Assembly (NCBI GenBank): GCA_963575645.1
Contig: OY754465.1
Span: forward strand, 55,699,901 to 55,763,900
Direction: 5' to 3'
DNA length: 64,000 bases
Source: Xanthostigma xanthostigma
Lineage: Eukaryota; Arthropoda; Insecta; Raphidioptera; Raphidiidae
The notes beneath the pieces were generated by a model, which worked only from the letters and a program-made list of their open reading frames with translations, ran no database searches and had not been told where the DNA came from. Position 1 is the first letter of the stretch. Each line of letters opens with the position of its first letter. Positions 1 to 54,678 of this stretch are shown here, piece by piece. The position numbers and the translations under genes were made by a program.

Positions 1-72
1 CAACGTGGGGCTCGAACCCACGACCCTGATATTGACAGTCGCATGCTCTACCGATTGATCCACTTGAGGTTG
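1..72 (-). pseudogene. tRNA-like sequence (SINE head or tRNA pseudogene)
   Basis: The minus strand has an A box-like TGGATCAATCGG and a canonical B box GGTTCGAGCCC 50 bp later, ending CCCCACGTTG. The anticodon arm pairs poorly and the loop has C where position 33 should be T, so it is not a functional tRNA. It sits at the window edge, so any SINE body is mostly hidden. Confidence 0.5.
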
Positions 73-820
73 TGTTCTCACAACGCTAATATGAGTATAT
101 CTAGTTAGGGCATTTCACATGAATAGAAGCTTATTTTTGAGATACATTTTGCAACATTTCTCATTAAAGCTCCGTTCCTAATGGTCGTAGCGTAATATTA
201 TATACCCTATGGCCTTCCTCGATAAATGGGCTATCCAACAAAAATTTTTTTTATCAATTTAAACCAGTATTTCCTGAGATTATAGCGCGTTCAAACAAAC
301 AAACAAACAAACTCACTCTTCAGCTTTATATATTAGTAGGTATAGATATCTTGTAAAAAAAAACATACAAAACTCGACTTTGACCAAATTCTGTCACATC
401 AAATTTAAATTAAATTTGCGAAAATTAAAAAGAAGTGACATATAAAATAACTTTTGAAAAAAAAAAACTAAAAAAAATGAAACTTCTTCAACTAGGGTCA
501 CTAAAAAGTTTTTGACGTTTGCGCCGATTTAATTACTACCACGTTTTAATTATTGCCGATCTTAAAACTTTATTATTTTACGTTTTTTAGTAACCTTTTT
601 TGAGGGTAGTTCGATTTTTAAAGGTTTTTTATTTTTTGTTCTGTTCTGCAATAAATACTCCGCAAGTAACTATGTAGTAACATTGAAATAATAATTTATA
701 CGTAAAAATTGAACATTTCTATAAATCGCTTTTATAGTTTTTTTTTTTTTTTAATTCTGTTAAGTTTATGGGTTTATGACAGGTTTATAAAGTGGTAAGT
801 TTTTAAATCACAATACTTAC

Positions 821-895
821 AATTTCCATGTATACAATTAATATACATCCCTTTCGCAACGAAAAGCAACAACAGAAACTATTCAAAATTGACAT
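821..895 (-). CDS. Gene C: first exon of a third paralogue (partial, runs off the left edge)
   Basis: A 75-bp exon with ATG at 895-893, 25 codons beginning MSILNSFCCCFSLRKGC, followed by GTAAGTATT. Length, start context, phase and donor match exon 1 of genes A and B, while only about 12 of 25 residues are identical to gene B, so it is an older copy. The upstream sequence to about position 1130 also aligns with the flanks of the other two first exons. No exon-2-like sequence is visible between 820 and 1, so the rest of the gene must lie left of the window, or the copy is a relic. The cysteine cluster (Cys-Cys-Cys) is fuller here than in A and B (Cys-Cys-Asp). Confidence 0.75.
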
Positions 896-1135
896 TTTTG
901 TTTTTGTAAATTAGCTTTTAAAAAGTTTAGTTTTCTCAATTAACGTCTACTGAATACTCATAATAATAATTAATGACGGACGGTTATAGTTCAATATTGT
1001 CCACAAAAAATTTATTAATCATCATTCAACAGATTAGCCAAGATTTAAAAACAAAAAATATAAGGATATCGATTTCATGGATACAGCTATAATAATGAGT
1101 TCGTTTGCTGCTGTGATCCGCGGACACAAAGATAA
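896..1135 (-). promoter_or_regulatory. Conserved 5' flank of gene C
   Basis: Directly upstream of exon 1 of gene C. Blocks such as CAACAGATTAGCCAAGATTT and GATTTCATGGATACAG recur upstream of gene B (6320-6690) and gene A (16869-17250). It probably contains the 5' UTR and promoter, but no clear TATA box is shared, so the start site cannot be fixed. Confidence 0.4.
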
Positions 1136-1171
1136 ACATTTCGTTGATATAACGAGTCTAGTACTTATTAA

Positions 1172-1435
1172 TATTTTTGAAGTAAAACTTCTTTAGGTAC
1201 GTTGGACTTGGGGAGTAAGCTGGTAAATGCCTGACAAAATCGTTTACGGAAGTGCATCATCGCGAACGAAATCGTTTACGGAAGTGCATCATCGCGGTGC
1301 GTGATCATTCGAGGCGAACGGTAGTTGAGAGGGAGATATAAGTTAGTTAAAATAGTAAGAGAGAGAGAGTTACGTTTCATATATTGGAAGTTGAGAGGGA
1401 GATATAAGTGAGTGCGACAAAGACGGAGCATTAAT
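1172..1435 (+). repeat. Repeat with GAAGT(G)AAACTTCTTTA start and a 32-bp tandem duplication
   Basis: Starts like the element at 7868 (TTTTTGAAGTAAAACTTCTT). Inside, ATCGTTTACGGAAGTGCATC is duplicated at 1239-1264 and 1271-1296, and TTGAGAGGGAGATATAAGT is duplicated at about 1325 and 1391. Unclassified. Confidence 0.45.
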
Positions 1436-1446
1436 CGAAATTATTT

Positions 1447-1648
1447 TTTGACGTGATAACGTCTTATAAATTGATGAATCACGTCAATATAAAACGATGA
1501 AACACCGGCTGCATGCACGAAAAAGTGTAACGTTCCTAACGTTCCGCCTGACCCTGTGCGTGATTATTAAATATGATATTCGAGCGGAATACGTTATCAC
1601 GTAAAACTATCGTCCGTAAACCGGCTTTACTGACAACCAATTTTTTGA
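1447..1648 (+). mobile_element. 'GACGTGATAACGTC' element, copy 1
   Basis: Left end TTTTTTGACGTGATAACGTC, right end ACTGACAACCAATTTTTT. Shortest of five copies. Ends form an imperfect inverted repeat around (A/G)CGTGATAACGT, and T runs border both sides. Confidence 0.7.
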
Positions 1649-1769
1649 ATAACGAATTGATATAAAAACTAAAAAAAAATTATGGGTCGCTACAAGGCGC
1701 TTTGGGTTAACTAATATAAAATCGTGGGGTGCATTTATAGTTACATTATAGTCGAAGTTGATAGAAAAA

Positions 1770-1930
1770 ATTCCAGTCAATTGGGAGACGGGACCATTCC
1801 AACTTCAAAACTATTGACACTTGATATAGTATAATAAAGAAAACAAATTGTCTGATATCGCGTGAGTAATGGCTATTATTCAAAATATTTGCTGTTCGTT
1901 GCCATGGTTACCTACTTTAGAAATATTTTT
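1770..1930 (+). repeat. Fragment of an unclassified repeat shared with 58300-58650
   Basis: Blocks GACGGGACCATTC and TTGCCATGGTTACCTAC, and the gap between them, match 58318-58630. The downstream part of the same repeat reappears at 2575-2960, so the element is split around the 3' end of gene B. Confidence 0.5.
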
Positions 1931-2322
1931 TTTAACAAAACTCGTGAAAAGAACGCTGCAGAAAATCAAAAATTTGTTTACTCAAATCAGCATTGTTTTG
2001 CATCATTAACCATAGAGATAGGGAACTGTTCTCTTTCTTAATTGCAGACACTTTCACTGTTCTCTCGCGTTCTCTATTGTAATATCTCTATGAGTTTTCC
2101 CCGTTCCACGTCCCCCGCAAAAGTGCCTACCCAACCTCCTTAAGAACACGTCAATTATTATAATTGAACTTTTTTAAGAAAACAGAAAAGAAAATTTCCA
2201 AGACAGAAACAAAAACTGTTTTTGTATTCACTGACGATGAAGAAAGTACAATTTGCAGTGACCTTTCGTATATCGAAATTGTTTCCGCCTAGGACGGGTT
2301 TCTCATAAAAAAATGTTTACGT

Positions 2323-2328
2323 TTTATT
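2323..2328 (-). promoter_or_regulatory. Poly(A) signal AATAAA of gene B
   Basis: AATAAA on the minus strand 33 bp past the gene B stop codon, in the context TTCAATAAAACG. The same hexamer occurs at the equivalent place after gene A. Confidence 0.6.
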
Positions 2329-2360
2329 GAATTACTGGCCTATACAGACAATAACAATAT

Positions 2361-5300
2361 TTAATAATTTACATACATAACCACTGCTTGAGCTCTATAG
2401 TAAAAGTGTAGTTCTTGAAGGAAACTTAATACAACCAGTTCAAAATAAAAGCTCAGGCCTGTAAACAAATGATCATTAATTGATTAATTAGGCGAGTGAA
2501 GCGAGTAACAATTTTACATTTTTGTGGTACATTTTACGAAAAAAACTAGTAAATTTCTTAGCTATGGATAAAAATGTAAAAATAAATCAAAGCATGCTTA
2601 GCTAATTTCTTTCTTACAGATCTTCAGAACAAAAGTTCAGCGGATTTATTTTTATTTTCAAATATACACATATATATTTTTTTTTTGCTTTACCCCCTCC
2701 AGAATAAATCTACTCCCTTAATTACAGCATATATCACTTCTGCGCATGCGCCGATTTCACCCAACAACAATATTATGGCTCTTCAAATTTGGTTTCAATC
2801 AGCTCATTCGTGCTCACAGACTAACAGACGCACAGATTTTTTTCCAAAATTCTGTTTTTTTTTTTTTTTTTTGGAGTCACTGGACCTCAAAACGAAAAAA
2901 TATTGAGTAGTATTATTCCCCACTGGCGGTGTTCGAATGGTAAAAATTACACCGATGTTCTTTCCCCTTGATATCGTGCAACTTTTGTCAGAAACTCTTT
3001 TTCGAAAACCCTCTATAAAATAAAAGGTGTTCGGGTTTTAAAAATCCATCCTGCAAAAATTAAGTTACCTGAATAGAAACAAAACACAAAACTGTCAGGG
3101 ATTCCATATAACGACAATTTAAACGCCATTGCAATATAATAAATCAGTTCAACCATTTTATAAACAGTCCATGTTATAATAAGACGTCTGTTCAACTGCA
3201 AGAATTAGAGACGGTAGTAAAAATTTAATACTCGAATAATTAATCATTTAGGTGTATTAGTTGTAGCGTAGATAGGCTCAGTGAAAATTTACAGTAAAAA
3301 GTGTACGCAGGTTAATCAAAAATGCAATTTGTTTTAGCAGTTGTTTCTAATAGGTAACAACAATCATGTATTGAATTTATAACTTCCCGCTTTAAAAAAA
3401 AAAAAAAAAATTGTTTTCAAAAATGGGGAAGTTATTGGTTTCACCCCGATTTTCGAAAATCGAGTTTTCGCCAGATCTCGACGTTTTGAGGTCCTAGGAA
3501 GCTATTGAAACTATTTTGGCGATGATGTCCGTAGGGCTGTATGAATGTGTGTGTGTGTATGTATGTGTGTAAACCTTTTATATCTTTTGAACGGAGTGTC
3601 TGACTGAAACGGGGTTTGAGGCATCTGACGTGATCTTGGTGAACTTAGACTTCCTGAAAATTTGAAACGATTCGGCCCAAAAAATTTTGAGAAATCTTAA
3701 AAAAACAAGTTTCAAAAATTTTTAAAAAATAGTTTTTGTAAAAAATTTTCTAAACTACTAAACCGATTAATTCCAAAAACTTATCAGCTCTTCTCCTTAA
3801 CAAACTGCGTCGATTTCCGCAAACCGCATCAAAATCGGTTCATTTGTTCACGAGATACCGTGAACGAAAAAATCGTAAAAAAGTGTTTTTTTAAAATGAC
3901 TCTTAAAATTGTTATCAGATTGATTTTTTTATAATAAATTACTTTCTTAGGCTAAAAAAACTGCGTCGATCGCCGCAAACCATATCAAAATTGGTTCATT
4001 TGTTCATGAGATAACGTGAACTAAAAATTAGGAAAAAAGTATTTTTTTTAAATTACTCGTAAAATTCTTATCAAATCGATTTTTTTGTAATAATTTACTT
4101 TCTTAGGTTAAAAAAAACTGCGTCGATTGCAGCAAACCGCATCAAAATCGGCTCATTTGTTCTCGAGATTCGTGAACGAAAAATTTGTAAAAGTGTTTTT
4201 TTTTTTTGCTCGTAAAATTCCTATGAGATCGATTTTTCTGTAATAAATTACTTTTTTAGGTTAAAAAATTGCGTCGACTGCCGCAAATCGCATCAAAATC
4301 GGTTCATTTGTTCATAAGATATCGTGAACGAAAATTTCGTAACAAAGTGTTTTTTTTGAGCTCGAAGAGCTAAAAAATAAACTTCTTGCTATATTTTATA
4401 TATTTTTGAGCGTTTTGAACTCGAAAATAGCGGGAAGTTACAGGGATGGCCTGCAGGGTCAAACTTCTTTTCAAATTTTTTTTTTGAGCTCGAAGAGCTA
4501 AAAAATAAACTTCTTGCTATATTTTATATATTTTTGAGCGTTTTGAACTCGAAAATAGCGGGAAGTTACAGGGATGGCCTGTAGGGTCAAACTTCTTTTC
4601 AAATTTTTTTTATAGCCTCATTACCAACTTTACTCCTATTAGTAGTATTGTTTCAAAAATGAGTGCCAAGACGATACCAAAGGACGCAACACCATATAAA
4701 ACTGTAAATAAAAAAAACACACATGGGAACTGTGATTTTTTCACGTTTTATAATTTATTTAAGGTAGTACCTACTGTCGGTTAGAGAGTTACTGTTCAAA
4801 ATTAAATGAAACTTGGCATATTAGTAGATTTTAATAAGATAATGATAATAAACCACCTAAAAGAGTTGACAATTAGATTGTGATCATATAATTACAGTTA
4901 GTCGTTCTAAAACTCTGTTATGTAGAACATTAAATTGTACTCACACACAGACAAATGATTTTTCTACGTAGAAAGAGATCGCTTTTCAAGCTACGTTTTT
5001 ATTAAACGTAAATAAATGTTGTCAATAAAATAGGTAAAAAAGCTTTTTGAGTTAAACGGTTTTATTCTTCAATCGATGATGAGTCACCATAAGGAGGAGC
5101 TTTGATAAAACTAAAGTAAAATAGTGAGGCTCAAAATGTTCACTTTTTTGAGATCGGAAATCATATATTTAGTTTTCGACTATGTCCTCTTCGACCATAA
5201 TGTAACTATAAATGCCTCCCCACGATTTTATTTTAGTTTCATCAAAGCCCCCTATGGTGACTCATAATTATTTTCTAATTTATAGAACATCATTGATTGG

Positions 5301-6319
5301 ACAATAACACCGTTTAACTTAAAACGCTTTTTTACCTATTTCATTTTAAGTTTTTAATGTGCTTTATTAAAAGTACGATTTGCATTCGGACGAAAGCCGG
5401 AACGGTCAGTTATTTATTATAATATTGTATTTTCATCGGAACTACAAACATATGCAAAATTTGAACTCAATCGAATAATGGGAAATAGTTGAAAAAGCTG
5501 TCGCAAGATTTGAAACAAAGATAGTAACAAAAAAATATACGGAGTCAAGCTAAATAAAACCGTAAAGCAATATCATTTCAATCGATCAATTATTTTTCGA
5601 ACAGAAACGACTTAAAATTCTACAATGCTTTTTTTGTGGAGAAATACGTGTGGTCATAGTTCAAGGTCATTGTTAAATCTGTTTTTCTAACAATGCTTTC
5701 TGCAATCCAGCATTAGACTTACCATAGTAATTCTTCTCTACGTAATCCACAAACTGTCGGTAATTCCGATCACCAAGTTTTCCTCTCAATATCTTAATAA
5801 ATTCGTCTTTACATAGTAGTAAATACACACAAATTATAAAAAAGATACACTGAATGATCTACAGAAACAATAAACATTTCCAATTGGTTGATTTATATAA
5901 TTAACTATGATATATATAATTAACTATACCATGACACTTTTATTTTCGAATTTATTCAAAGTTTATTTAATTTGCCATACGTTTGCGTATAAAGGCTTCA
6001 AGAATAGCGGGCGCTACCTGAAGACAATACTGTCTAATAAATATATATTTTGAGTACCTATACATCAGGGGTTTATCGGAGTGGATCGGAACGCCGCTCC
6101 GGTACTTTTCCCGGCACCGAAGCACTGCTTAGGAATTTTGATTTGATTTCTTGCCGATTATATGGTGTATATTATATTAAGTATGCCCTACCTAGTACCT
6201 TTCTGATTTAAATGGACTGCAAGTTTTTAAATTATAGTACTTACAATTCCTACGATTGCAACAATTTCAGCTCCTTTTCGCAATGGAATGTCACAACAGA
6301 AAGTATCCAAAATTGCCAT
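2361..6319 (-). CDS. Gene B: five-exon four-transmembrane protein of a tandem family
   Basis: Exons read on the minus strand: 6319-6245, 5858-5723, 4701-4625, 3195-3069, 2458-2361 (75, 136, 77, 127, 98 bp; 513 bp, 170 aa). Every intron is GT-AG and the phases (0,1,0,1) close the frame. The protein starts MAILDTFCCDIPLRKG. Hydrophobic segments lie at about residues 17-41, 70-94, 100-125 and 130-153, with a charged loop at 42-69 between the first two. TM1 is split by intron 1. I do not recognise a named function; a short insect membrane protein with an N-terminal FCC..LRKG motif and four TMs fits the general class of uncharacterised insect four-TM proteins (inference). Gene A has the same exon lengths for exons 1-4, with 22/25, 21/45, 16/26 and 29/42 identical residues, so this is a true paralogue and not a chance ORF. 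An AATAAA lies 33 bp after the stop. Introns 3 and 4 hold repeats. Confidence 0.85.
2575..2960 (+). repeat. LINE-like 3' fragment shared with 58650-59060 and 28255-28500
   Basis: Shared blocks include AAATCAAAGCATGCTTA, CTTCTGCGCATGCGC and a 'TTTCAATC.G.TCAT.CGT' block typical of LINE 3' regions. Lies in intron 4 of gene B. Confidence 0.5.
3381..4612. repeat. Unclassified repeat with internal tandem arrays in intron 3 of gene B
   Basis: Begins ATAACTTCCCGC and ends GCGGGAAGTTAC, an inverted terminal match. It holds four tandem units of about 155 bp, each starting near ACTGCGTCGAT (3804, 3960, 4118, 4267), and then two near-identical 128-bp units starting GAGCTCGAAGAGCTAAAA (4358, 4486). A short GT-rich tract is at 3548-3572. 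Confidence 0.7.
5047..5324. mobile_element. Foldback MITE in intron 2 of gene B
   Basis: Inverted arms: AGTTAAACGGTTTTATT on the left and the complementary block ending CCGTTTAACTT on the right. The inner arms carry GAGTCACCAT and ATGGTGACTC. Related end fragments are at 1708-1770 and 19940-20036. Confidence 0.6.
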
Positions 6320-6690
6320 TTTTATTTTTGTAAATTTGTTTTCAAAAAAACTTGATACTTTTTCGGTTAACATTTATTGAACAATAATGAGGGATGGTTA
6401 TGCGGTATAACATTGTTCACAAACAATTTTAAATCATCATCCAACAGATTAGTCAAGATTTCAAAACAAAAATCCTAAGAATAATTATGTCGGTTTCATG
6501 GTTACAAAAATGTAATGAGTTGGCTTGCTGTCATAATCTACAGAGTATCACGCATTTACATACGATACAAAATAATGAACGGGGTGCGCTTATAAAATCT
6601 GTCCATGTACTAAATTTTTTATTTAAGTTAAATGAATAGAATAGAACTTTCACGAAGCGGCAAGGCTAAGTAAGTTTTATATTCGAATTC
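6320..6690 (-). promoter_or_regulatory. Conserved 5' flank of gene B
   Basis: Aligns with the flanks of genes A and C. With gene A the similarity runs to the block CTTTCACGAAGCGG near 6657, marking the edge of the duplicated unit. Likely 5' UTR and promoter; no conserved core motif is evident. Confidence 0.4.
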
Positions 6691-6728
6691 GGCCAATGAC
6701 CGAAATAAATGCGAAAACTAGTTTTGAC

Positions 6729-7267
6729 TAGTGATGTGCCGGATCGTTAAAAACGTATATCCGCGGATACGGATCTGAATACGGATTTTTGGTTTCAAGT
6801 TCCGCAGATACGGATACGAATCTTAACTTTCTTAGAGTACGCGGCGGTAAATATTGCACATCGACCTTTGGAAAAAGACTATCTGGTATGGGAAAAAGTT
6901 ATTGACCTCTTTAAGAGTTAACTCTTATAACAGATTGTCCCTTTCCAAAGATCGATTTGCAATATTCGTTATAAAGATAGTTTTTTAGTACCTTTGAGTT
7001 ATGTACTATTGGTATGGTACTCACTACGATACCTAAATATTTGCAATATAAAGGTGCCAAATACGATTTAAAAAAAAAAAAAAAAATAATCTGAATGGAA
7101 TTTAACAGTTTTTCTTTATTAGGTACCTAATCACCTATATATATGAAATTTCATCTATGAATTGAAAATTAATAAGGTAAAAGATCCGCACAAAAACTAA
7201 TGGATACGGATCTTTCTTCTTCCTCGGATATCCGCGGATACGGATACGGATATCCGGAACATCACTA
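6729..7267 (+). mobile_element. hAT-type MITE of the GGATACGGAT family, copy 1
   Basis: Ends TAGTGATGTGCCGGAT and ATCCGGAACATCACTA. Internal subterminal repeats of ATCCGCGGATACGGAT. No clear target duplication in this copy, unlike copies 2-4. Confidence 0.8.
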
Positions 7268-7867
7268 ATATTTACTAATATTTATCAACCAATATTTACT
7301 AAACCCGAAATCTTACATTTAAACGGGTATTGAGTGTTATAAAATGAGCAAAACTATAGTTTTGCGTATTTTCAGTTGGACAAAACTAGTTCTGTCCATT
7401 TTTGAACGGACAATACTTACTAGTTCTGCTTGTTTCATTCAATCAACGTCCGAACCCGAATAAAAGTAGGGTTATGTTCTTGTCCCAAATATCCGTGAAC
7501 TGATCTATTCGGAGATCCACAGAGTTTGAGTATTACGGGCTCTTGGCTAATAGTATGGTGCAGCGACTATATTTTTTTTCATTTATAAATATACATATTT
7601 ATAAAAATCTATCCACAATTTACTGTTTTTATTTTGCAAATTTATGTCTTTTTAAATCCCCTCAGGCCGCAACCAGCATTACATGCTCGTTGTGGTCTGA
7701 GAGAAATCATTCAGTAATTTGTTAATTACATAACTGTCTATAAGGACGTTTCTCCCCTATAAATACTGGCCAGATGCCGTATTTCGGAGAGAAATCTATC
7801 GTCCATCAAACCTTTTGATTCCTTATTTAATTATCTAAGTTTCAATTGAACTTTTCTTAATTACTTA

Positions 7868-8105
7868 TTTTTGAAGTGAAAACTTCTTTAGCGGCGTTGA
7901 ACACTTTTTTGTAATGGGTAAAAAATCTTAAACTCGTGTCAGGCGTCAGGACACGTGACCTGAACTTTTATTTATACAACGTTAGACATCTAGCGTTGAA
8001 ATAACGTACATAAAAAAATGCAATCTATGATACAAACCATTTTGATCGAAAATTCGTAAGACGGTTAATATTCAAGTTTTCACTTCAGCTGGCACTCCCG
8101 GAGTG
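7868..8105. mobile_element. Short element with GAAGTGAAAACTT inverted ends
   Basis: TTGAAGTGAAAACTTCTTTA near 7872 and CAAGTTTTCACTTCAGC near 8073 are inverted. The right side continues into GGCACTCCCGGAGTGC, a small palindrome. Family of the fragment at 1172. Confidence 0.45.
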
Positions 8106-8379
8106 CAAACCTTTTTTTTTATTTTATTTGTGTTGGAGTGATTACCATTTAGTTTTGTTAATTTGTTGGTTTTGTCAAAATTATTGAATTTAAATATATT
8201 TTGTTCATTAAATTTCGTTATATTCTTTTTCTTATTTTTGGGGAGCTATTGGAGCAGATCTCCTTATAAGATCTATCCAGTTTATCTGGTGCGTTGTGTG
8301 CGTTTCCCTTGAGTTCATTGAACACTCTGTTACACCAATTTTTCCCGAGGAAAACCACACTACGTTACAATGGCAACCA

Positions 8380-9025
8380 TACAGGGTGTCCCATTAAGAA
8401 TGGGACATAGAACAACCGCTGTCTAAATTTTAATTTTGACTATAATTTATATTTTTTGATATTTTCTAAGTCAATAATGTACACTTTGTTAGTTTGTTGT
8501 AAAGTAATTGGTTTTCGAGATATTCGCAGTTAAAGATAGATAGACATGTACTTTTTATTTGTATTATTATTAATAATATTCATTTTTACAATTTTGTCTT
8601 AAAAAAACTGCGAATATCTCGAAAACCAATGACTTTACAACAAACTAACAAGTGTACATTATTGACTTAGAAAATATCAAAAAAATTAAAATTATAGTCA
8701 AAATTAAAAATTAGACAGCGGCGTAACATTTAGAAGGGGTACAAGCATTACTTACTCCTGCCGTACGCCACTGGTAGAGCGTACTGAACTAATTTTTTTA
8801 TTGTTAGGTGCATTTTATGATATTTAATAAGTGTGCCGATTTGAGAATTATACGGTGTATTAAAAAAATTATGGACATTAATAATTTTTCAGTTTTCAAC
8901 TTCAACACACCCCGTATTTCAGAAACGAGTAACATTTTATCTAAGCATATTTCGCTTAATCGTTTTATTTTGAATTGGAGAATCTGCGGTTGTTCTATGT
9001 CCCATTCTTAATGGGACACCCTGTA
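8380..9025. mobile_element. Mariner/Tc1-like foldback MITE
   Basis: Inverted ends TACAGGGTGTCCCATTAAG and its complement, extending about 40 bp. Inner arms at about 8401-8540 and 8605-8725 are again inverted. The right third (8726-8980) has no partner. No transposase remnant recognised. Confidence 0.75.
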
Positions 9026-9295
9026 TATAAACTTAGGAGGCTTGTGTATAAGCATGTAGAGTTTTCCCCGCACCACGTCCCCCGTAAAAGTGCCTACCCA
9101 ACCTCCTTAAGAACACGTCAATTATTATAATTGAACTTTTTTAAGAAAATAGAAAAGAAAAATTCCAAGACAGAAACAAAAACTGTTTTTGTATTCACTG
9201 ACGATGAAGAAAGTATAATTTGCAGTGACCTTTCGTATATCGAAATTGTTTCGGCCTAGGACGGGTTTCTTATAAAGTTATAAAAAAATGTTTGT

Positions 9296-9301
9296 TTTAT
9301 T
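9296..9301 (-). promoter_or_regulatory. Poly(A) signal AATAAA of gene A
   Basis: AATAAA on the minus strand about 40 bp past the gene A stop, in the context TTCAATAAAACA, matching gene B. Confidence 0.6.
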
Positions 9302-9342
9302 GAATTACTGACGTATACAGACAATAACAATATTTAATAATT

Positions 9343-12300
9343 TTAACACATAATCATTGCGTGACCTCTATAGTGTAGCTCTTGAAGGAAACTTATTACA
9401 ACCAGTTGAAAATAAATACTCAGGCCTGTAAATAAATGATCACTATTGGTTAATTATGCGCGCGAAGCGAGCCCTACTACTATGTAACTATTCGTACATT
9501 TTTTTGTGGTACATTTTACGAAAAGAAGTAGTGTACTTCTTAACTGGAAATACACTGTGAATAGTTAATCACTGCTGAACCAGGGCATCATGGCGCGCAG
9601 TGCAAGAATATCAAACTTTCGGCCAGTGCGGTGTATAGTATTTTTCCTTCATACCTCGGTCGTAAGTAGGCTTATTAAGTTATTAAATACATTAATTAAT
9701 TAATTACTTATTAATTACATAAAAACATAGATAAATTCCAAGCAAGCAGCTTTGAGGTTATACGTAAAAACACGAATGACAGCTGTTCACGACTATTAGC
9801 TAAAATATAATAGGGATGCTATGGAAACCACATCTAAACAACAGTTGATAGGTTATTTATACATTACTGCCGCCCACCAACGGGTAAATGTTAGACTTTC
9901 TGTCTTACAATTGATGCCGAAAGTATGTACTTTCGATCGAGGTATGAAGAAAAAATAGATGGGTTTCTATTTAAAAAAGTGAAGGTAACCTTAATGTCTC
10001 GGAGTCGTTTCCCCCAAATGAAAAAAAAAAACTACACCCTTTGCCATTGATTTCCTGCAGCTTTTGTCAGAAACTTTTTTTCTAAAACCCGCTCTATGAA
10101 ATAAAAGGAGTTCGGGTTTTAAAAATGCATCCTGCATAAATTAAGTTACCTGCATAGAAACACAAGATAAAGCTATCAGGGATTCCAAATATTGACAATT
10201 CAAACGCCATTGCAACACTAATAATCCATTCAACCATTTTATAAACACTCCATGTTATAATAAGACATATGTTCAACTGTAAGAATTAAAGATGGCAGTA
10301 AAAATTGAATAATAGTATATTGTGCGACTAGTGAGAGAAGGAGAAGATTCCACGAGCGTGAAATTTGCCGCACGAGCTTAGCGAGTGCGGTAACACGCGA
10401 GTGGAATATTCTCCTTCGATCAATGGTGCTTTTTCGTGTTCCTCTTTGATGCCAATTCTTATTTGATCGTTTCGAGAAATAATTGACTTTGAATAATTGA
10501 TTTTTCGCGATTAACGCGACATGTGTCGCGGATAAACAAAAAAGAGTACAAGTAAAATTTACGTATTTTTTGTAGTGAAATCCGTATCTGCAAAAAAAAT
10601 TAGGGGTGTCCATTTAAAAATGCAAAGTCGCCCACCGCTCCACCCGCTGGGTGGGGGAAAAAATATTTTTTACGTGTTTTCACGTTTTTTGATTCCATGC
10701 ATCGTCTAGGAGATTTTTCGGGGTTCCGGGACTTTTCTAACACCCTGTATAGCAGGAGTGCCGGGTGCGTCAAATCTATCCTTAAATAAGAAAAGTTCGT
10801 TCCAAGCAGCCAGCGAACGGTTTCGAAACCGTCACCCGCATGCGCAGTAGGTAAAACGAAGCTGTTAGTGGCGATTTTAGAACACGTTTGACCTATTGCG
10901 TATGCAGGTGACGGTTTCGAAACCGTTCGCTGGCTGCTTGGAACGAACCTAATATTACACATTTTTCAGTCTGTGTTAAGTTGGAATGTTAATAAATAAT
11001 AAAACGAAGAGCTCATGGCGACGATAACAGAAACCTTTGGTCTAGTTCATGTCCCTTTTTGAGTCCTCTTTCACCGAAAATTATGATTATGGTGTCATTC
11101 GATTCGGAATGACATCTAGATACTTTTTGAAAAAGTTGAAGTGGGGAACGAAAAGAACGACAAAGTTATAAACATTTTATTAAAAAAAGAGGGGTTGTTT
11201 TTTTGCGAATATCTCAAAAACTATTGCAGATATCTGAAATCACAAAAAAGGAGTCTGGAAGAACAGGAAATTTCCTTAAAAAAATCCCACTTCCGGACCT
11301 CGACCACCAATATTTATAACTTTAATTTAGCTAGCCCTGGCTAATTACTCGTCAGAGTAAATAGTATAAGAGCTAGCAACATCGCGAAAAAAAGAATTTT
11401 AAGACGGCTGATCTTTTGATATTCATTTTCTTATTGAAGTTTGGTGGGAATGCGGCACGTCTGGCTGCTGGGAGCGGTTGCGTTTACCTGTGCGCATCCC
11501 ATTTGTACAGGTACAAATTATAGGTAATTTATAAGTCATTTGCTAGTTTTTAAGAAGCGTCGCCCTGGTAACTGAATGTTAGTTATTATGTTATTAGTTG
11601 TGTTTACCAAAGTAGTGGAGATGATTGGGAAAAAAAGCATTTTAATATAGCTGCAATTTTAGCATGATATAGTTACGGTATCAAAGAACCTAAAATTAAT
11701 TTGCCAGATAGAAATCAAGTTGCTTAATAAGGAGCAAGACTAATTTAAGTCTTGGAGACAGTAAATGATTTTGAATTTTAAATTGGTCTTGCTCCGTATT
11801 AAACAACTGAATTTAATTACTAAAATTGTATCTGGCACGGAGTTACCAACGACAAAACTGTCTGGCACTTTAAGTTAATTTTCCTGAAAGGTTAACTAAA
11901 TATGATTATTTGTCCACTTTTGTCTTCACATAAAAATATTTTTCTTTTTCGTTACTATCACGACGAAATTTGGCTTTCCACTTTGGCAAACACAACTAAT
12001 AACATAATAAAAAACATTGCGTTACTAGGACAACGCCATCTTAATAAGTAGAAAATGACATATAAAACCTGTACAAATGGGATGCGCACAGGTAAACGCA
12101 ACTGCTCCCAGCAGCCAGACGTGCCGCATCCCCACCAAACTTGAATAAGAAAAGGAATATCAAAAGATCAGCCGTCTTAAAATTCTTTCTCGAAAACGTT
12201 GGTAGCTCTCGGACTAAAAGGCCATCTTGTTAAAATAAAAAACAAAATTTTAATTTAGAAGTGAAAATAGGGCTAAATTTTTTTTCTATGTATGCCAATA

Positions 12301-15300
12301 TTTAGCGTGTTCAAATCAAATAAAACCCATTGGTTTGTGACAATTGTTTCTAATACGTCACAAATATATATTAATTTTTTTTACACCATCATTACCAACG
12401 TTACTCCTATAAGAAGTAATGTTTCAAAAATTAGACCCAAGACGGTAAGAACCATCGCTGCACCCCATATAACTGCAAATAACAAAACAAACAAATTGGA
12501 ACTTTGATTTTTTTCACATTTTATAATTTATTTAAGGCCAGTCAAGTGCTTCAATTTTCATTAAAATAATATCGGAAGACAGTCATAGATTAACATACAG
12601 TATGTAAACACGTAAGGTGCACATAGGGAAATTAGCATTGGGAAAAAATACTTGGATCAGAGTTAGCCATGACTGCATTAATTGTTATTTCTATTGAATT
12701 ATCGTGGTAATCTTGAGGATTTCTATTTTATTTTGATTTATTTTTATTTTACTTGGCTTTTTTAACAATAAAAAGCTCTTATAAATCATTATTTTAATTT
12801 TTTTGTACAAAAATAAAACAAAAAAAAAATAAAAAAAATAAATAAAAAAAATAAATAAAAAAAAAAATATACGCGTCGACTTGAGAACCTCCTCCGTTTT
12901 TGTTTTTCGTCGGTTAAAAACAACTCCATCTGTTTGGAAACATTTCATTCAAAAATTGTCTGACTGGTATTACGTATGCGCGTTGGTAATTCAGTGACCC
13001 AATGTCGTTAGGTTCAACTCGAATAGACGGAGATATTTGATCTCGCACCATATTTAAGTATTTTTTGGGAATTGAATGTCCCATTAATAAAAAAGTCCGA
13101 TTATGTTGTAATCATTCGAATATTTTCTTCGGTAGTATACACATTCATTTTGCAAAAGAATATTATCTGTCAAATTGAAAAACAAGATTTCAAGGCTCAC
13201 TCTGATCTAGTCATTTTTTCCCAATGTTAATTTCCCTATGTGCACCTTACGTGTTTACATACTGTATAAGGTGTCTGTAAAATGGGAGAACCGTTTTAGG
13301 GTCTTCAATTTTGAAGCTTGCTGTCACTCATGAGGAACTATTTAGGTAATCAAATGAAGTCATGAAAAAAATAATGCACTTGTTTACCTAAAAACAAGAA
13401 ATTTGGTAACAGTAGATTATCTAGCTCCAATCTAATTAAAAAAAAGTATGAATTAATCTCTCGCACGTTAAAAGTGAAACTTCTTAGGTTCTAGCATTTG
13501 TTGACGATTTTATTATTTCAGTATTAGGAAATGGTTTTGTGGAAATTGTTACCGTGGCTAGAGAAAATGCTACGTATACACACATTACACACTGCGCATG
13601 CATGTAGACTGCGCTTGACGTTTCGACACAGTCGGAAAAGCGGAAAAGCGTTTCACTTTAGCGTCTGATCCAGACCAATTTTCCCTACCACTTCTAAAAA
13701 GTTTCGCTTCAAAAAAATATTGTTATGCTATGGTGCACAAAGCATTGTCAAAAAATTTGATTTGGCAACGACCTTAGATTGTAGCGATGTGTCGCTCCTG
13801 AGCGGAGCGAGTTGCTATTTTTTTTAATGACTCACTCCGAGCGCCATTACTCTGTGATTGAACTATTCTGTACTGTTGCACTCGCACATTTGCAGAGCGC
13901 ACACAGCACAGGGCACAGAGGCACTAGTGATATTTGCACGTACAGAGTTATCTTTGCTGAATCGTTTAATCTTGAATGACACACTATTTACAGTGACTTA
14001 AACCAGAGATATCTCTGACTTAAGCCATTCACATTGACGTCGTCGACAAAGATATAATATTGTAACAATAAACATTATTATTGTTAAACTTTTAATATTA
14101 TACTAGTTCATCCGAAATGCGAATAATATAAGATGAGAATCATGTGAAAATGAGCTCCGAGCTGAATGTGTATTGTGCTGTGCAATGCTACGTGACTCCT
14201 GAGCATGCATGATGACAGTTTACACCTCTGAAGTTGCACAATGCACACTTGTGTAGTGCGTACTGTCTAGTGTCGCTCCTTTGAACGACTCGCTCTGAGC
14301 GACTCTTTTTAGTGAGCACCAAACGCAAATACGTGCAATACTTGAAGCAACCCGCCAATAAATGGTACACGTACGTACAAGTCTGTGTTTAGACAAAACA
14401 AGACTTGAAAGCAATAATCTCCTAAACATAATTATATTGGTGTAAACAAATACACTTGCAATTATTTCTTGTACCAGATGTGCCTTCAATAATTACATTC
14501 AATTTTATCCTGTGTAAACAGTTGCTTACAATTTTTGAAGGTCAATAATTGCGCCAAATTTATTGCATGTAATTATTGTTCTTGTACGTACAAGAAAATG
14601 GCATCATGTAAATGGGCCTTTAGACTTACCATAGTAATTCTTCTCTATGTTATCAATTATTTGTTGGTAATCCTGATCATTAGTTTTTGCTCTCCATGCC
14701 TTCATCACTTTGTCTTTCCGTAGTAGTAAAAACAGAGTGATGAAAAAACCCGTGCTTAATATAATCTACAGAAAAAGGAAACATTTCCAAATGGTAATTA
14801 ACTATGACATAACACCCTGTTTTATTTTCAAATTTATTCAAAATCCATTTAAGGGGGTCACCCCATGTAATGGCCGGGTTTTTTGACATTTTTTAGGAAT
14901 TTGACGACCAATAAAAAGATATAACTGTTAACTTTTTGTAGGTAGGTATATATTAATATTTCAGTAGTGTGTAAAAAAAATTTCAAATATAAATCTACAC
15001 AAAAACATGAGTTGTGCCACTCCGAAGACACCCATCTTAAGAAGAAGGTTGGTAACCCTCCCCATGATTCCGACTGTTTGGCTTATCTCAAATAGAAAAA
15101 TTAAACGGCATTTTAATCTGTAATAGGCCCCACTCACGATCAAACTTCATGCCACAGTTCAGTGTTCAGTGAAGTTGGACAGATTAATCGAAAGACTGAC
15201 TGGCACCACACACAGTTCATGCAAACTGCTCAGTTTTTTAAATTTTTTGTGTTCAGTTTGGTTCAGTTGTTGGCATACACTCGTCGAGTATAGATATATA

Positions 15301-16868
15301 AAATATATATTATATACATACTATAATATTATACTATAGATAATTAATAAGAACTAAATGAGTTATTTAAATGGCGAGGATTGGCTGTTCATAGCTATGG
15401 GATTGTATTTAAAACAGGGAAATAAGAAAAAAAGAAGAATATGGGTGAAAAATTGGTTAGAAATGCGTGATTCAAGAAGTCATGTTTATTTGATTAATGA
15501 ATTACATCTTGAGCCGCTTGATTGCAATAATTATTTACGAATGAATGAATTAACTTACAATTATTTACTGGAATTAGTTACCCTATTTATTAAGAACCAG
15601 GACACAAATATGTGAAAATCTATTTCTGCACAAGAAAGGCAGCAACATTGAGATTTTTGGCTTCTGGTTGTACAAAACACAGAACTCCAAAAACTGAACT
15701 GAAAAACACCCACACACACAACAGTTTACTTGAACACTGAACACTGAAGTCGTTCAAAAATCAAGATGCATTTGATGAGTTCATGCTTGACTTCAGTGTT
15801 GGTTTCAGTGTTTATTTGTCCCACACACTATCATGCTTCACTGAACTATAAGTTTGAACACTGAACTGTTGCATGAAGTGTGATCGTGAGTGGGGCCTAT
15901 AAGCCTGTGGCAATAAGATGAACTAAGATTATTCGAAAATATTGAAAATTGAAAAATTGACAGACTTTTGAAAATTAATTTGTAAGTTTCATGATTTTTT
16001 TCGATAATTTTGCGTCGAAAAAATAGAATCACTCGGAACTTCCAAAAGATCCTAGTTCATTCTACGACTATATACATGTGTCGAATTTACCATTAAAATT
16101 TCAAAGCAATCGATCAAACCGTTTTTGAGATATCGTGGAGACAATTTTTTTTTTGAGAAAAACAGTCTTTTAAAGATTCAAGCACGATTTAAACTATGAA
16201 ATCTTAACTCAGCATCAATCTAAAAAAAGCCCACCAAAATTAACAAAAACGAAAAAAATGGATTTATCGGGTTTTGCCTGTTTACTCCTCATTTGTTTTA
16301 GAACGTCTCAAGTAACAAGCCGACGCGTGACAATAGGCTCCGTGCTCAATAATTTGAGCGCTCTGAACACCTCCTCTTCTAACAGCTGTATCTTTCCAAT
16401 AACTTGGAATATTATAAAATCATTTTGCCAACACATTCTAAACATATTTAGTAGTCAATGTATGCAAAAACAATAATTCGATTTTTTCAACCCATTACAT
16501 GGGGTAACCCCCTCAATTTGCCATATAAAGAAAAGCTAGAAGAATAGCGGGCACTACTTGAAGGGAATACTGCCTAATATATATATTTTGTAAGTATCTA
16601 CATCAGGACTTAATTTCAGCAGAAGTGGATCGGAATGCCGGTTCGGTACTTTTCCCGACAGCTGAGCACTGCTTCGGAATTTCGATTCGATTTCTTGCCG
16701 ATTATTTATAGTGTATATTATATTAAGTATGCCCTACCTAGTACCTATCTGATTTAAATTGACAAGTCTTTAAATTACTTTTACAGTACTTACAATTCCT
16801 ACGATTGCAATAATTTTAGCTCCCTTTCGCAATGGAATGTCACAACAGAAAGTATCCAAAATTGGCAT
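9343..16868 (-). CDS. Gene A: paralogue of gene B, five exons, four-transmembrane protein
   Basis: Exons on the minus strand: 16868-16794, 14765-14630, 12472-12396, 10276-10150, 9425-9343 (75, 136, 77, 127, 83 bp; 498 bp, 165 aa). All junctions are GT-AG, with the same phases as gene B. It begins MPILDTFCCDIPLRKG. TM segments lie at about residues 17-41, 70-95, 100-125 and 130-150, and the last exon reads through a hydrophobic stretch to a short tail ending in Met-Cys and stop. The last exon is 15 bp shorter than in gene B because of an in-frame difference near the C terminus. The locus is about 7.5 kb long because introns are stuffed with transposons: a TTAA-flanked element containing a PIF/Harbinger element in intron 1, a mariner-like MITE in intron 2, foldback and inverted-repeat MITEs in intron 3, and a MITE in intron 4. 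All coding exons remain open, which argues for function. Family function unknown. Confidence 0.85.
9639..9957. mobile_element. MITE in intron 4 of gene A
   Basis: Inverted arms TATTTTTCCTTCATACCTCG (9639-) and CGAGGTATGAAGAAAAAATA (-9957); outer TTTCGGC blocks also pair. Confidence 0.55.
10336..10417. repeat. Imperfect 80-bp palindrome
   Basis: GAAGGAGAAGATTCCACGAG pairs with CGAGTGGAATATTCTCCTTC, and the centre GCCGCACGAGC/GAGTGCGGT also pairs. Forms a long hairpin in intron 3 of gene A. Confidence 0.6.
10605..10751 (-). mobile_element. Mariner-like element end
   Basis: The minus strand starts TACAGGGTGTTAGAAAAGTC at 10751, a typical mariner-type terminus. The partner end is not found, so it is probably truncated. 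Confidence 0.4.
10796..10947. mobile_element. 152-bp MITE with perfect 41-bp inverted arms
   Basis: Arms 10796-10836 and 10907-10947 are exact complements (outer TTCGTTCCAAGCAGCCAGCG). Each arm contains the palindrome GAACGGTTTCGAAACCGTC, so it can fold at two levels. In intron 3 of gene A. Confidence 0.75.
11369..12210. mobile_element. Large foldback element in intron 3 of gene A
   Basis: Ends AGAGCTAGCAAC and GTTGGTAGCTCT. Long complementary arms (for example GACGGCTGATCTTTTGATAT with its complement near 12150). Complementarity continues inward for over 200 bp on each side. Confidence 0.7.
12596..13266 (-). mobile_element. Mariner-like MITE with transposase remnant, copy 1
   Basis: Inverted ends TACAGTATGTAAACACGTAA and complement, about 55 bp. 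On the minus strand an internal segment resembles the part of DD34D mariner-type transposases just before the last catalytic Asp (compare copy 2, VRQFLNEMFPNRW). Interrupted by an A-rich insertion at 12818-12870. In intron 2 of gene A. Confidence 0.7.
13280..14600. other. Intron 2 of gene A, mostly unassigned
   Basis: Between the mariner-like MITE and exon 2. Contains a small repeat scrap ATTGTCAAAAAATTTGATTT (13744; also 37000) and two facing blocks, GTCGCTCCTGAGCGGAGCGA (13791) and GTCGCTCCTTTGAACGACTC (14272). No exon-like sequence matching gene B found. Confidence 0.4.
15124..15899 (+). mobile_element. PIF/Harbinger element nested in the TTAA element
   Basis: Ends TAGGCCCCACTCACGATCA and complement, flanked by TAA on both sides (15121-15123, 15900-15902), the usual 3-bp target of this superfamily. 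Subterminal regions are rich in GTTCAGTGTTCAGTGAAG repeats. Carries a truncated transposase ORF. Confidence 0.85.
15358..15615 (+). pseudogene. HARBI1-like transposase N-terminal fragment (85 aa)
   Basis: The reading contains RRIWVKNWLEMRD and later NNYLRMNELTYNYLLELV, matching the N-terminal arrangement of Harbinger transposases (basic WV..WL block, then YLRM and LLELV helices). The DDE catalytic domain is missing, so this is a remnant or a captured first exon. Confidence 0.65.
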
Positions 16869-17251
16869 TTTTATTTTGTAAATTTGTTTTCAAAAAAACT
16901 TGATACTTTTTCGGTTAACATTCATTGAATAATAATGACGGAGGGTTACATTGTTCACAAAAAAATTTAAATCATTATCCAACAGATTAGCCAAGATTTC
17001 AAAACAAAAATCCGAAATCGTAAAAATAATTAAGTATTTCGGTTTCATGGATACAGACATGTAATGAGTTGGCTTGCTGTTATAATCTCACGCATCTAGA
17101 TACGGTACAAATAATATAACTGGGCGGGGGGGGGGTGCGTTTACATAATCTGTCCATGTACTATTTTTTTTATTTAAACAGCAAGCTTTGGGTGCGGCTT
17201 GTCTCGGGTTAAATGAATAGAATAGAAGAGAACTTTCACGAAGCGGAAATA
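16869..17251 (-). promoter_or_regulatory. Conserved 5' flank of gene A
   Basis: Aligns with 6320-6690 up to CTTTCACGAAGCGG near 17235, where a pogo/Tigger-like MITE interrupts. It contains a run of ten G at 17125-17134 and an extra 30-bp stretch not seen at gene B. Confidence 0.4.
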
Positions 17252-23109: not shown

Positions 23110-23668
23110 TAGTGATGTGCCGGATCGTTAAAAATGCATATCCGCGGATACGGATCTGAATACGGATATTTGGTTTCAAGATGCGCGGATACGGATACGG
23201 ATCTTAACTTTCTTAGAATACGCGTCGGTAAATATTGCACATCGACCTTTGGAAAGAGACTATCTGTTATGGGAAAAAGTTATTGACCTCTTAATTTAAG
23301 AGTTAACTCTCATAACAGATTGTCTGTTTCCAAAAATCGATGTGCAATATCTCATTATAAAGATAGTTTTTTAGTACCTTTGAGTTATGTACCTACTATT
23401 AGTATGGTACTCACTACGATAAATGTTTGCAATATAAAGGTGTCAAATACGATTTTAAAAAATAAAAAATAATCTGAAAGGAATTTAACAGTTTTTCATT
23501 ATTACCTAATCACCTATATATATATAATAAAATTTCATCTATGAATTGAAAATTAATAAGGTAAAAGATCCGTAAAAGATCCGCCAAAAAACTAACGGAT
23601 ACGGATCTTTCTTTTCCCTCGGATATCCGCGGATACATATACGGACACGGATATTTGGCACATCACTA
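23110..23668 (+). mobile_element. hAT-type MITE of the GGATACGGAT family, copy 2
   Basis: Ends TAGTGATGTGCCGGAT and TGGCACATCACTA. Perfect 8-bp target duplication ATACATAT (23102-23109, 23669-23676). Confidence 0.9.
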
Positions 23669-23880
23669 ATACATATATAACATTCTTATTTTCATATCAT
23701 AAAGCCATTCCACAAATACGTAATAACATTCGGTCGGTGTTTATGAAATGAATTCTGTAATAATTATCCACAAGACAAATGAACTAACGATGAGGATGCT
23801 GACCTTCGCATTACACGATTGTGTCCGAGGGTGCGTTCAGAATGAAATGAAAATACCCATGGACATACGATTGCCAGATC

Positions 23881-43202: not shown

Positions 43203-43523
43203 TACATCATTACTATGCGAATTTAATTAATAAATTGAAAACGTTTTACTCGAATATTATTTCCTTATGAAAATTTATGGATATGAATTTTTAGAAAAAA
43301 AATGGAGATTTGGAAAATGTAAAAAAATATGTCGCTATTTAAAAAAAAAAATGCATGTACACTTCAGAGTTCAGGCTGAGTTTGAAATACAAATAAATAT
43401 AGGTACCTCAGCAGCTTTCGATAGTAAATCTCGAGTTAAACAAAAAACTAATTCAATTTTTTTGCATCTAGTATAGGATAAAGGAATTATTCACAGAGTT
43501 TAATTAAAAACGACAATAAAGTT

Positions 43524-44075
43524 TGTACAAAAAATTTACAAAACTATATACACAAACCTTCCTCGTTTATCGCTCTTTTTATTAGTGAAAACCGTTTCAA
43601 AATCCGTTGCGTGGTTTAAAAGAAGTAAAAGAAACAGACAGAGGCAAACAGCGACTTTGTTTTATACTATTTAGATATAGAGATTTTGACAAAACACCGT
43701 CATAGTTCAGCCGTTTTGTACAAAATATTTACAAATTACATACACAAACCTTCCTCGTTTATCGCTCTTTCTATTAGTGAAAACCGTTTCAAAATCCGTA
43801 GCGTGGTTTAGAAGAAGTAAGCGGAGAAACAGACAGAGGCAGAGAGCGACTTTGTTTTATACTATTTAGAGATAGAGATTTTGACAAAACACCGTCATAG
43901 TTCAGCCGTTTTGTACAAAATATTTACAAATTACATACACAAACCTTCCTCGTTTATCGCTTTTTTTATTAGTGAAAACCGTTTCAAAATTTGTTGCATG
44001 GTTTAAAAGAAGTAAGCGGAGAAACAGACAGAGACAAACAGCGACTTTGTTTTATACTATGTAGTGATGATAAAA
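43524..44075 (+). mobile_element. RTE-like LINE 3' tail repeated three times in tandem
   Basis: CACAAACCTTCCTCGTTTATCGC starts at 43551, 43743 and 43938 (periods 192, 195 bp). Each unit contains GTGAAAACCGTTTCAAAAT, a CAGACAGAG block and CGACTTTGTTTTATACTAT, the signature of RTE 3' regions. Confidence 0.7.
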
Positions 44076-45800: not shown

Positions 45801-45819
45801 AGACATGCTATGTTTCTAT

Positions 45820-46352
45820 TAGTGATGTGCCGGATCGTTAAAAATGTATATCCGCGGATACGGATCTGAATACGGATTTTTGGTTTCAAGATCCGCGGAT
45901 ACGGATACGGATCTTAACTTTCTTAGAGTACGCGGCGGTAAATATTGCACATCGACCTTTGGAAAGAGACTATCTGTTATGGGAAAAAGTTATTGACCTC
46001 TTTAAGGTTTAACTCTCATAACAGATTGTCTCTTTCCAAAGATCGATGTGCAATATCTCATTATAAAGATAGTTGATTTAGTGCCTTTGAGTTATGTACT
46101 ATTAGTATGGTACTCACTACGATAAATGTTTGCAATATAAAGGTGCCAAATACGATTTAAAAAAATAAAAAATAATCTGAATGGAATTTAACAGGTTTTC
46201 ATTATTACCTAATCACCTAGTATATATATAAAATTGCATCTATCAATTGAAAATTAAGAAGGTAAAAGATCCGCCATTCGCCAAAAACTAACGGATACGG
46301 ATCTTTCTTTTATCTCGGATATTCGCGGATACGGATATCCGGCACATCACTA
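45820..46352 (+). mobile_element. hAT-type MITE of the GGATACGGAT family, copy 3
   Basis: Intact ends TAGTGATGTGCCGGAT / ATCCGGCACATCACTA. Duplication GTTTCTAT / GTTTCTAG (7 of 8). Confidence 0.9.
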
Positions 46353-47404: not shown

Positions 47405-48424
47405 AATGGAAAATTTAATTCTCTACAAATTGCTGCTATCAAAAAAAATCTACCAGCTATCGATGCTTGAGTAAAAACGCCGTTTTTCCCGTGTTAATTA
47501 AATGGGGCCATTCAAAGACCAAAGATCTAGCGTTAACTAATATAATTGGCTCTCGCATGATGTGAAAAAATCAGTTACCAATGCTATAAGTATTAGAATG
47601 ATAGTTTGATAGTTGTGTCACTGTGGTGTAATGTAACTCAGTCCGCCGCGAGAGTGGAAAGATTCGGGGTTCGTATCACGACGGTGACATTGTTTGTTAA
47701 AAAAAATAAAACTAATTTTTCTATGTTGATAGCGTTGTAACAATGGGTGTTTCTTAACAATTGTAGCAAACTGTAGTTACTCTGTAATATATTATAATAA
47801 TTACTAACTGTAACATAACTCATCTAAATTATTATTATATTATTAAGTTAAAATTTTGGGAGAAAATAAAAAAACACTTTACTGTACACAGGTGCGTCTG
47901 AAATTGAAATTATCTAAGAGCATTGTCAAATCTGATTTACTGTCAAAATGTTCTGGAGCCCAGCATTCTAAGGTAAGATGTTCAATTGGTCATAACTATC
48001 ATAAAAAATATTATATAGCTTTTTTCATTGCTTCTATAGCTGAACAATAAACGAAAAACAAAACTTTTGTTCCACTCCCATTTATTTTTGAACACTGTGA
48101 ACACAAGGAGTAAATGCGACGCGGCAAATTGCTACCGTTTGCATGACGAAATTTATTGAAACAAAAGACCCTCTGTATAACTAAGGTCCACGGCGTTATT
48201 ATCTAGTTCCATGAATATAACGGAGTTTTATGCGAAGTCATTTTCCGCAAAATATCACTTTTGAACTGTCCTTTTTCGTTGGTCATTAACACAAGTTCCT
48301 ACCTTCTGTAAAATAGCTGCCTTTCATGCATCTGTCATATCCGCAAAGTTTCATACCCACAGTATGTTGCAGGAAACCTCGATTCCCAACGATTTTAAAC
48401 TCTGATATCAAATATTTATAGTTT

Positions 48425-48840
48425 GGTTACCGAGCGTAGTCGTGAGAGCACTAGCCTCGCATTCGAGAGGTACCGGGTTCGAATCCCGGCGAAGGTAGAT
48501 GTGGCTGGGACTTTTTCCAGCTGCCTTTCGCCGAGAAACGGTAATTCCTATATCGGACATCTTGTTGACGTATTCCGTGGTTTCCCTCAATAATTCCAGA
48601 TAAATATCGAGATGGTTCCTTAGTCAAAGCCATGGTCGATTACCTGTCAAACTCCTATGCCCGAAATTTGCCTACCTTATCCTAAAGTCCTAAAAATTCC
48701 TTCATGCACCCATTGCTATTAATTAAGTAGAAGTTTAAAAATGTAGAAAATAAAGTGTGATAGATGGAAAATAGTAATGGTGCGTATGGCGTCTGTTATG
48801 ACATAAAGTCGCGAAACTTTTCGAAAAAACAAAACGCTTA
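48425..48840 (+). mobile_element. tRNA-derived SINE, copy 1
   Basis: The head at 48425-48497 has B box GGTTCGAATCC, and the arm GAGAGGTACCGGG resembles tRNA-Ala, with CGC at the anticodon position. The body (ATATCGAGATGGTTCCTTAG, TATGGCGTCTGTTATGACAT) is shared with the inverted copy at 52166-52559. Confidence 0.75.
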
Positions 48841-53848: not shown

Positions 53849-54178
53849 CATGGAAATAGAAGAATCGATAAGGAACTGTTTACATTTCAATGCATGCGGC
53901 ACAAAGGCGGCGAGCATTTTTCTACTTGGGAATTATTAAACTGCAGATAAGCATCTCTCGTACACTGCCTACCTCGACATTCGCTTTGCACTGTTGTACA
54001 CGAAAGTCAGTTCATAACAACACGCAGTTAAAAACGTCGGTTCTGATAGTGTCATGCACAGATTGTATTATATTAAATGCCAAAACACGGACGAACGCAC
54101 ACGACACGCCCTACAGGCTGTCCAGAAATTTTCGACGTTATCTATTGGGATTTTGCGTGGAGTCTGAGCCATAGAGAT

Positions 54179-54678
54179 TAGTGATGTGCCGGATATCCGT
54201 ATCCGTATCCGCGGATATCAGAGGGAGAAGAAAGATCCGTATCCGTATCCGTTAGTTTACGGGCGGATCTTTTACCTTATTAGTTTTCAATTCATAGATG
54301 AAATTTTATATATATAGGTGATTAGGTAATAATGAAAAACTGTTAATTTCCATTCAGATTATTTTTCATTTTTTAAAATCGTATTTGGCACCTTTATATT
54401 GCAAACATTTATCGTAGTGAGTACCATACAAATAGTACATAACTCAAAGGTACTAAAAAACTATCTTTATAATGAGATATTTCACATCGATCTTTGGAAA
54501 GAGACAATCTGTTATGAGAGTTCACTTTTAAAGAGGTCAATAACTTTTCCCCATAATAGATAGTTTCTTTCCAAAGGTCGATGTGCAATATTTACCGCCG
54601 CGTACTCTAAGAAAGTTAAGATCCGTATTCAGATCCGTATCCGCGGATATACATTTTTAACGATCCGGCATATCACTA
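54179..54678 (-). mobile_element. hAT-type MITE of the GGATACGGAT family, copy 4
   Basis: Reverse orientation, 500 bp. Perfect 8-bp duplication ATAGAGAT (54171-54178, 54679-54686). Confidence 0.9.

Follow-up and report, generated by a model that had tools for sequence, protein, structure and literature searches.

Does the left end of a 64,000-nt stretch of the Xanthostigma xanthostigma genome (hereafter the window; C2:55699901-55763900, contig C2 being GenBank OY754465.1) hold genes that single-frame calling of open reading frames (ORFs) does not reveal, and to which protein family would they belong? The first-pass annotation of this DNA had described a tandem array of hidden five-exon genes on the minus strand, encoding proteins with four transmembrane segments (TMs), and had left their family open. 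In the reading that we hold with moderate confidence, the array consists of three tandem-duplicate genes on the minus strand, A, B and C, whose proteins probably cross the membrane four times and which are divergent members of the wider DUF4728/PW-tetraspan family (the pasiflora and Fire exit kind).

Gene models of the array

Genes A and B were read from a DNA self-comparison of the window, in which the segments 9059-17249 and 2092-6663 share five colinear blocks, placing both units on the minus strand where they had been claimed, and in which an extra 5' block appears at 788-1118. Exons 1 to 4 measure 75, 136, 77 and 127 nt in both genes, and exon 5 measures 83 nt in A and 98 nt in B; the claim that the copies have identical exon lengths and phases therefore stands for the phases of all 4 introns and the lengths of 4 of the 5 exons, and fails for exon 5. 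The spliced models encode proteins of 165 (A) and 170 residues (B), as had been predicted. Gene C (159 residues; exons of 75, 118, 77, 124 and 86 nt) repeats the five-exon structure, the introns of the three genes are all GT-AG (12/12), with phases 0, 1, 0, 1 and lengths of 319-2981 nt, and an AATAAA begins 26-42 nt past the stop codon of each gene.

Gene C had been noticed as a first exon entering at the left edge, and its remainder was sought after adding 100 kb to the left and 40 kb to the right of the window (203.9 kb in all). DNA comparison with A and B located exons 2 to 5 in the expected order, colinear, on the same strand and on the expected side, and so completed the gene; the best E-values of these exons were 6.9e-6, 1.5e-6, 8.1e-6 and 6.8e-10, in a comparison that also returned two unrelated matches (1.1e-4 and 8.6e-4), and the exon ends were placed by eye at frame-keeping GT-AG sites. 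Within these 203.9 kb, a profile built from A, B, C and the intronless relative R described below found no fourth array copy: the 15 exons of the array reach E <= 3.2e-6, by construction because they sit in the profile, and the next segment scores E 0.055. Across the six frames of the same 203.9 kb, the motif CC..[LIVM][RK][TKS]G occurs only in the first exons of A, B and C. The proposed FCC..LRKG N terminus is supported. Some 50.9 kb to the left of the window, a weak match that reads CICFILRTGVIWI was rejected since no gene structure was seen around it. A scan of the genome with the first-exon pattern returned 8 places, of which four are A, B, C and R and the other four are chance matches lacking LRKG.

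These genes indeed escape single-frame ORF calling, because none of the 5 ORFs of at least 120 residues in the window is A, B or C; one of the ORFs (10239-10613) overlaps exon 4 of gene A by 38 bases in a different frame. Exons so short, separated by introns of up to 3 kb, together with the fact that the exon ends of C and of the related gene D10 were fitted to A and B by eye, might suggest that the models were stitched together by chance from short open stretches. We consider this hardly credible, given that the remaining exons of C were found where predicted, that D10 has the same structure and that R is one uninterrupted frame of 166 residues.

Hydropathy averaged by column over A, B, C and R showed four maxima (columns ~27-33, 90, 114-123 and 147-150), two of which fall in one long hydrophobic stretch at columns 75-130, and a polar stretch at columns 45-66. 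When protein B is taken alone and scanned in windows of 19 residues, three segments exceed a cut-off of 1.6. By analogy, the four TMs proposed by the first-pass annotation are likely in A, B and C.

Family relationships through R and D10

The spliced proteins, for which a Pfam search had been proposed, gave no match over the cut-off for A, B or C. Weak matches below the cut-off fell in unrelated families (4 for A, E 0.0075-0.21; 1 for B, E 0.023; none for C), NCBIfam, searched with A and R, returned one weak match each, and the searches of solved structures each ended in a single chance match (E 0.38 and 4.2). A scan of viral contigs yielded 125 pattern matches with no array relative among them, and in the open-access literature no paper was found for DUF7027 and none of the titles listed concerned this array.

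Next, relatives were sought in the whole 623.3-Mb, 28-contig assembly with proteins B, C, R and D10 as queries, a search that is insensitive to short exons, since the B query missed C and the R query missed A, B and C. Protein B matched C7:26535593-26536102 at E 4.2, the place of R, an intact intronless frame that has in common with A, B and C the features M.IL, CC, LRKG, LLIG, W and S..Q and that hhalign relates to the array at 96.4%, in an alignment confined to its first 36 residues. Possibly R is a retrocopy; a five-sequence tree groups it with D10 (support 62) and does not tell its parent gene, and the short flank inspected showed no poly-A tail. The genome search with R returned, besides itself, two weak matches only: C1:27829985 (E 4.0), rejected as resembling a receptor frame, and C10:33712996 (E 3.8), where reading onward gave the model of D10. 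A match to C at C6:44055260 (E 0.014) was also set aside; two stops interrupt its frame.

D10 encodes 151 residues in exons of 75, 100, 86, 121 and 74 nt, with GT-AG introns in phases 0, 1, 0, 1, and shares with the array the five-exon structure, the 75-nt first exon and, in 4 of 4 introns, both the phase and an alignable place. As we read them, these places lie after residue 25, after a YY pair, three residues past the G of LLIG/LIVG and within the codon that stands four residues ahead of YF. This gene structure lends good support to a common origin of A, B, C and D10. D10 passes DUF4728 with 27.3 bits (cut-off 26.7), its second Pfam match being DUF7027 (PF22954; 18.7 bits, under the 27-bit cut-off), a family that is also the best match of R (16.1 bits, likewise under the cut-off). 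DUF4728 is also passed by a single-frame match on contig C9 (28.3-29.2 bits) and by the joined product of a second locus on contig C10, where the split between exons 4 and 5 falls, as it does in A and B, within the glycine codon that precedes YF, and PW and VxS are present in all three of these DUF4728-scoring proteins. Genome searches with DUF4728 gave matches in 0 of 14 control genomes, and weak DUF7027 matches were also found in 4 of the 14. D10 allows a name, that of the wider DUF4728/PW tetraspans, to be given to the family left open by the first-pass annotation.

The D10 search of the genome placed 25 of its 26 matches on C10, where nine matches that start at residue 1 (E <= 0.001, D10 included) span about 96 kb of the minus strand (C10:33670848-33766831). 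By their sequence, the C10 matches appear to make up a more extensive DUF4728-type gene cluster of this genome, and this D10-like first-exon cluster suggests that the family expanded here more than once.

The four-pass family in question includes the fly septate-junction (pasiflora) proteins. The pasiflora paper reports nine Drosophila proteins, the pasiflora proteins included, as one tetraspan family, in which Pasiflora1 has 169 residues, no signal peptide and both termini inside, PW opens TM3, the end of TM4 carries VxSQYQ in Pasiflora1 and VxS only in Pasiflora2, and the seven more diverged members have only PW in common (PMC4582180). Measured against that description, the array proteins resemble the pasiflora/DUF4728 type in size (159-170 residues vs 169 in Pasiflora1), in hydrophobic profile and, in all three cases, in the W at the start of TM3 and the VxS at the end of TM4. 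They differ in carrying VxSxxQ in 3/3 cases and the full VxSQYQ in none, in their LRKG and LLIG signature and in lying below Pfam detection.

Several points weigh against this family assignment. The pasiflora proteins are counted among the DUF4728 (PF15860) members, and the term DUF4728 occurs in one open-access paper, which is not the pasiflora paper. Neither DUF4728 nor DUF7027 is matched by any of A, B and C at E up to 10 (0/3), and the P of PW is lost in all three, which have TW (A), TW (B) and IW (C) aligned to the PW of D10, so that, judged strictly by the Pfam cut-off and the PW motif, the three are not members of the family. R lacks VxS, with AIS at that place. D10 is an exon model of our own building, its ends set by eye and its exon 5 chosen from four candidates by family fit, and its margin over the DUF4728 cut-off is 0.6 bits. 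Its similarity to C extends end to end (BLASTP, 25% over 146 residues) and hhalign relates it to A, B, C and R at 93.7% over 142 columns, in comparisons whose E-values flatter because the search spaces were tiny, BLASTP also being run without composition correction. The 34.7 bits of the second C10 locus belong to a joined exon 4-5 product, from exons about 9 kb apart that are presumed to be one gene and that score 18.8 and 17.6 bits singly, below the cut-off. Finally, the bootstrap intervals for the ratio of nonsynonymous to synonymous change (dN/dS) include 1 for all three gene pairs.

A different family could also be considered. LAPTM4 (Mtp) proteins are lysosomal four-pass cargo adaptors that start CC..VRTG before TM1, and this cysteine-rich N terminus resembles that of the array, where LLIGV..LI..W also bears a weak likeness by eye to LLVYGAVKGKPTHLLPF. 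Membership of the array among them seems very doubtful, as PF03821 (LAPTM4/Mtp) matched 0/3 array proteins in the Pfam search and its genome search found a separate locus on contig C6 (22.9 and 21.5 bits; cut-off 25.2), not the array. By eye, without a gene model, the C6 frame runs unbroken through the place of array intron 3, and D10 scores with DUF4728 and, below the cut-off, with DUF7027, and has no Mtp match.

Table 1. Features of the array genes, their 5' blocks and the intronless relative R (window positions unless a contig is named).
Feature	Position	Strand	Remark
Gene A exon 1	16794..16868	-	75 nt with ATG; begins MPILDTFCCDIPLRKG; GT donor
Gene A exon 2	14630..14765	-	136 nt; AG/GT
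Gene A exon 3	12396..12472	-	77 nt; contains LLLIG; AG/GT
Gene A exon 4	10150..10276	-	127 nt; AG/GT; ITW at position of D10 LPW
Gene A exon 5	9343..9425	-	83 nt including stop; IYFQLVVISFLQEL
Gene A AATAAA	9296..9301	-	starts 42 nt past stop
Gene B exon 1	6245..6319	-	75 nt
Gene B exon 2	5723..5858	-	136 nt
Gene B exon 3	4625..4701	-	77 nt
Gene B exon 4	3069..3195	-	127 nt
Gene B exon 5	2361..2458	-	98 nt including stop
Gene B AATAAA	2323..2328	-	starts 33 nt past stop
Gene C exon 1	821..895	-	75 nt
Gene C exon 2	C2 55699199-55699082 (window -701..-818)	-	left of window
Gene C exon 3	C2 55698762-55698686 (window -1138..-1214)	-	left of window
Gene C exon 4	C2 55695704-55695581 (window -4196..-4319)	-	left of window
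Gene C exon 5	C2 55694477-55694392 (window -5423..-5508)	-	left of window
5' block of A (upstream, exon 1, intron 1 start)	16531..17249	-	~82% identical to B 5991-6663
5' block of B	5991..6663	-	counterpart of A 16531-17249
5' block of C	788-1118		70% identical to A counterpart, 72% to B
R, intact intronless frame	C7:26535605-26536102 (L032)	-	166 residues; begins MPILDFCCCGFTLRKG

Uneven change among A, B and C

Proteins A and B are 65% identical, and C is 35% identical to each of them. The dN/dS ratios were 0.86 for A/B (bootstrap 0.52-1.48), 0.72 for A/C (0.46-1.10) and 0.85 for B/C (0.55-1.29), none of them distinguishable from 1 and hence none demonstrating amino-acid constraint. Third codon positions do not lead the A/B changes, which number 39, 27 and 29 at positions 1, 2 and 3, and coding sequence can be less alike than its flank (exon 2, 69% vs 78% before it; exon 4, 84% vs 91% after it). 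These values would agree with an array that is decaying or unconstrained, a gene-shaped sequence without function, which we nevertheless regard as improbable. Although 44% of the sites differ between A and C, none of the three models has a stop, a frameshift or a lost splice site, and coding-length differences among A, B and C are multiples of three. When neutral change was simulated, with indels ignored, the start codon survived and stops were absent in A as well as B in 1.0% of 20,000 runs; at the A-to-C distance, with all A/C changes placed on one lineage, the start was kept and no stop arose in 9 of 20,000 runs (0.045%).

The coding sites that differ between A and B are distributed over exons 1 to 5 as 4/75, 42/136, 19/77, 20/127 and 10/83, more unevenly than expected by chance (chi-square 26.6, 4 degrees of freedom, p 2.4e-5). 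Flank identity between the two genes is 93-95% around exon 1 and 56-78% around exons 2 and 3, and changes across the last two exons, from 55% before to 91% after exon 4 and from 73% before to 89% after exon 5. The array is changing fast, and most so in exon 2, the predicted first loop. We infer from the uneven divergence that the ends of the array genes may have undergone gene conversion, the alternative being fast change of the first loop.

The same pattern bears on what these proteins might do. Within the same family they could have another job, as fast-evolving contest proteins (immune, reproductive or host-directed) and not junction scaffolds, which would account for the high dN, the excess of A/B differences in exon 2 relative to exon 1, the tandem array and the intact intronless relative. 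We hold this to be unlikely, because the whole-gene dN/dS is not above 1 and gene conversion can itself yield uneven exon divergence. Also put forward, tentatively and with a low probability, is a lineage-specific tetraspan subfamily that dropped the PW of the fly family, has a near-neutral or diversifying first loop, had its gene ends homogenized by gene conversion and gave an intact intronless offshoot; it would be a contest-driven family of membrane proteins that arose from junction scaffolds.

Possible role, neighborhood and significance

As divergent members of the wider DUF4728/PW-tetraspan family, the array proteins would lie in a cell membrane, their two termini facing the cytoplasm, and the neighboring cysteines ahead of TM1 may carry a lipid modification. 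By analogy with other small tetraspans, they could assemble side by side (in cis) and would then act as scaffolds or organizers of epithelial or glial membranes.

Around the array, parts of a phosphoinositide phospholipase C (PI-PLC) gene (PI-PLC-X, PI-PLC-Y, C2 and EF-hand-like) lie some 13-19 kb past the point where gene C ends (L016:5336-6691 and L017:1065-1712, minus strand), and to the right of the window there is a frame of long interspersed nuclear element (LINE) type of 1219 residues with endonuclease, reverse transcriptase and RNase H (L019:2070-5726, minus strand). Intron 1 of gene A contains a dispersed repeat (window 16000-16534) with at least 39 further copies in the genome at 75-87% identity, as counted among the 40 of 347 candidates that were scored. 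Elsewhere in the window, a repeat of about 550 bp with internal inverted similarity occurs four times (6721-7267, 23110-23671, 45812-46352 and 54177-54678; 85-89% identical to the first), and a tandem repeat with a 195-bp unit (2.8 copies, 92% matches) occupies 43522-44068. One tRNA lies away from the array at 48412-48497, and Rfam gave no match in the window.

As we read it, the array represents additional members of an already known tetraspan family, and its interest lies in the fast change and in the loss of PW. Annotation readily overlooks membrane genes that are small, split into many exons and quick to change, and those of the array are invisible to Pfam; where profiles gave no lead, the intron phases held in common with a detectable relative indicated the family. 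Provided that it is expressed, the array would exemplify a tetraspan family of the septate-junction type in the course of diversifying.

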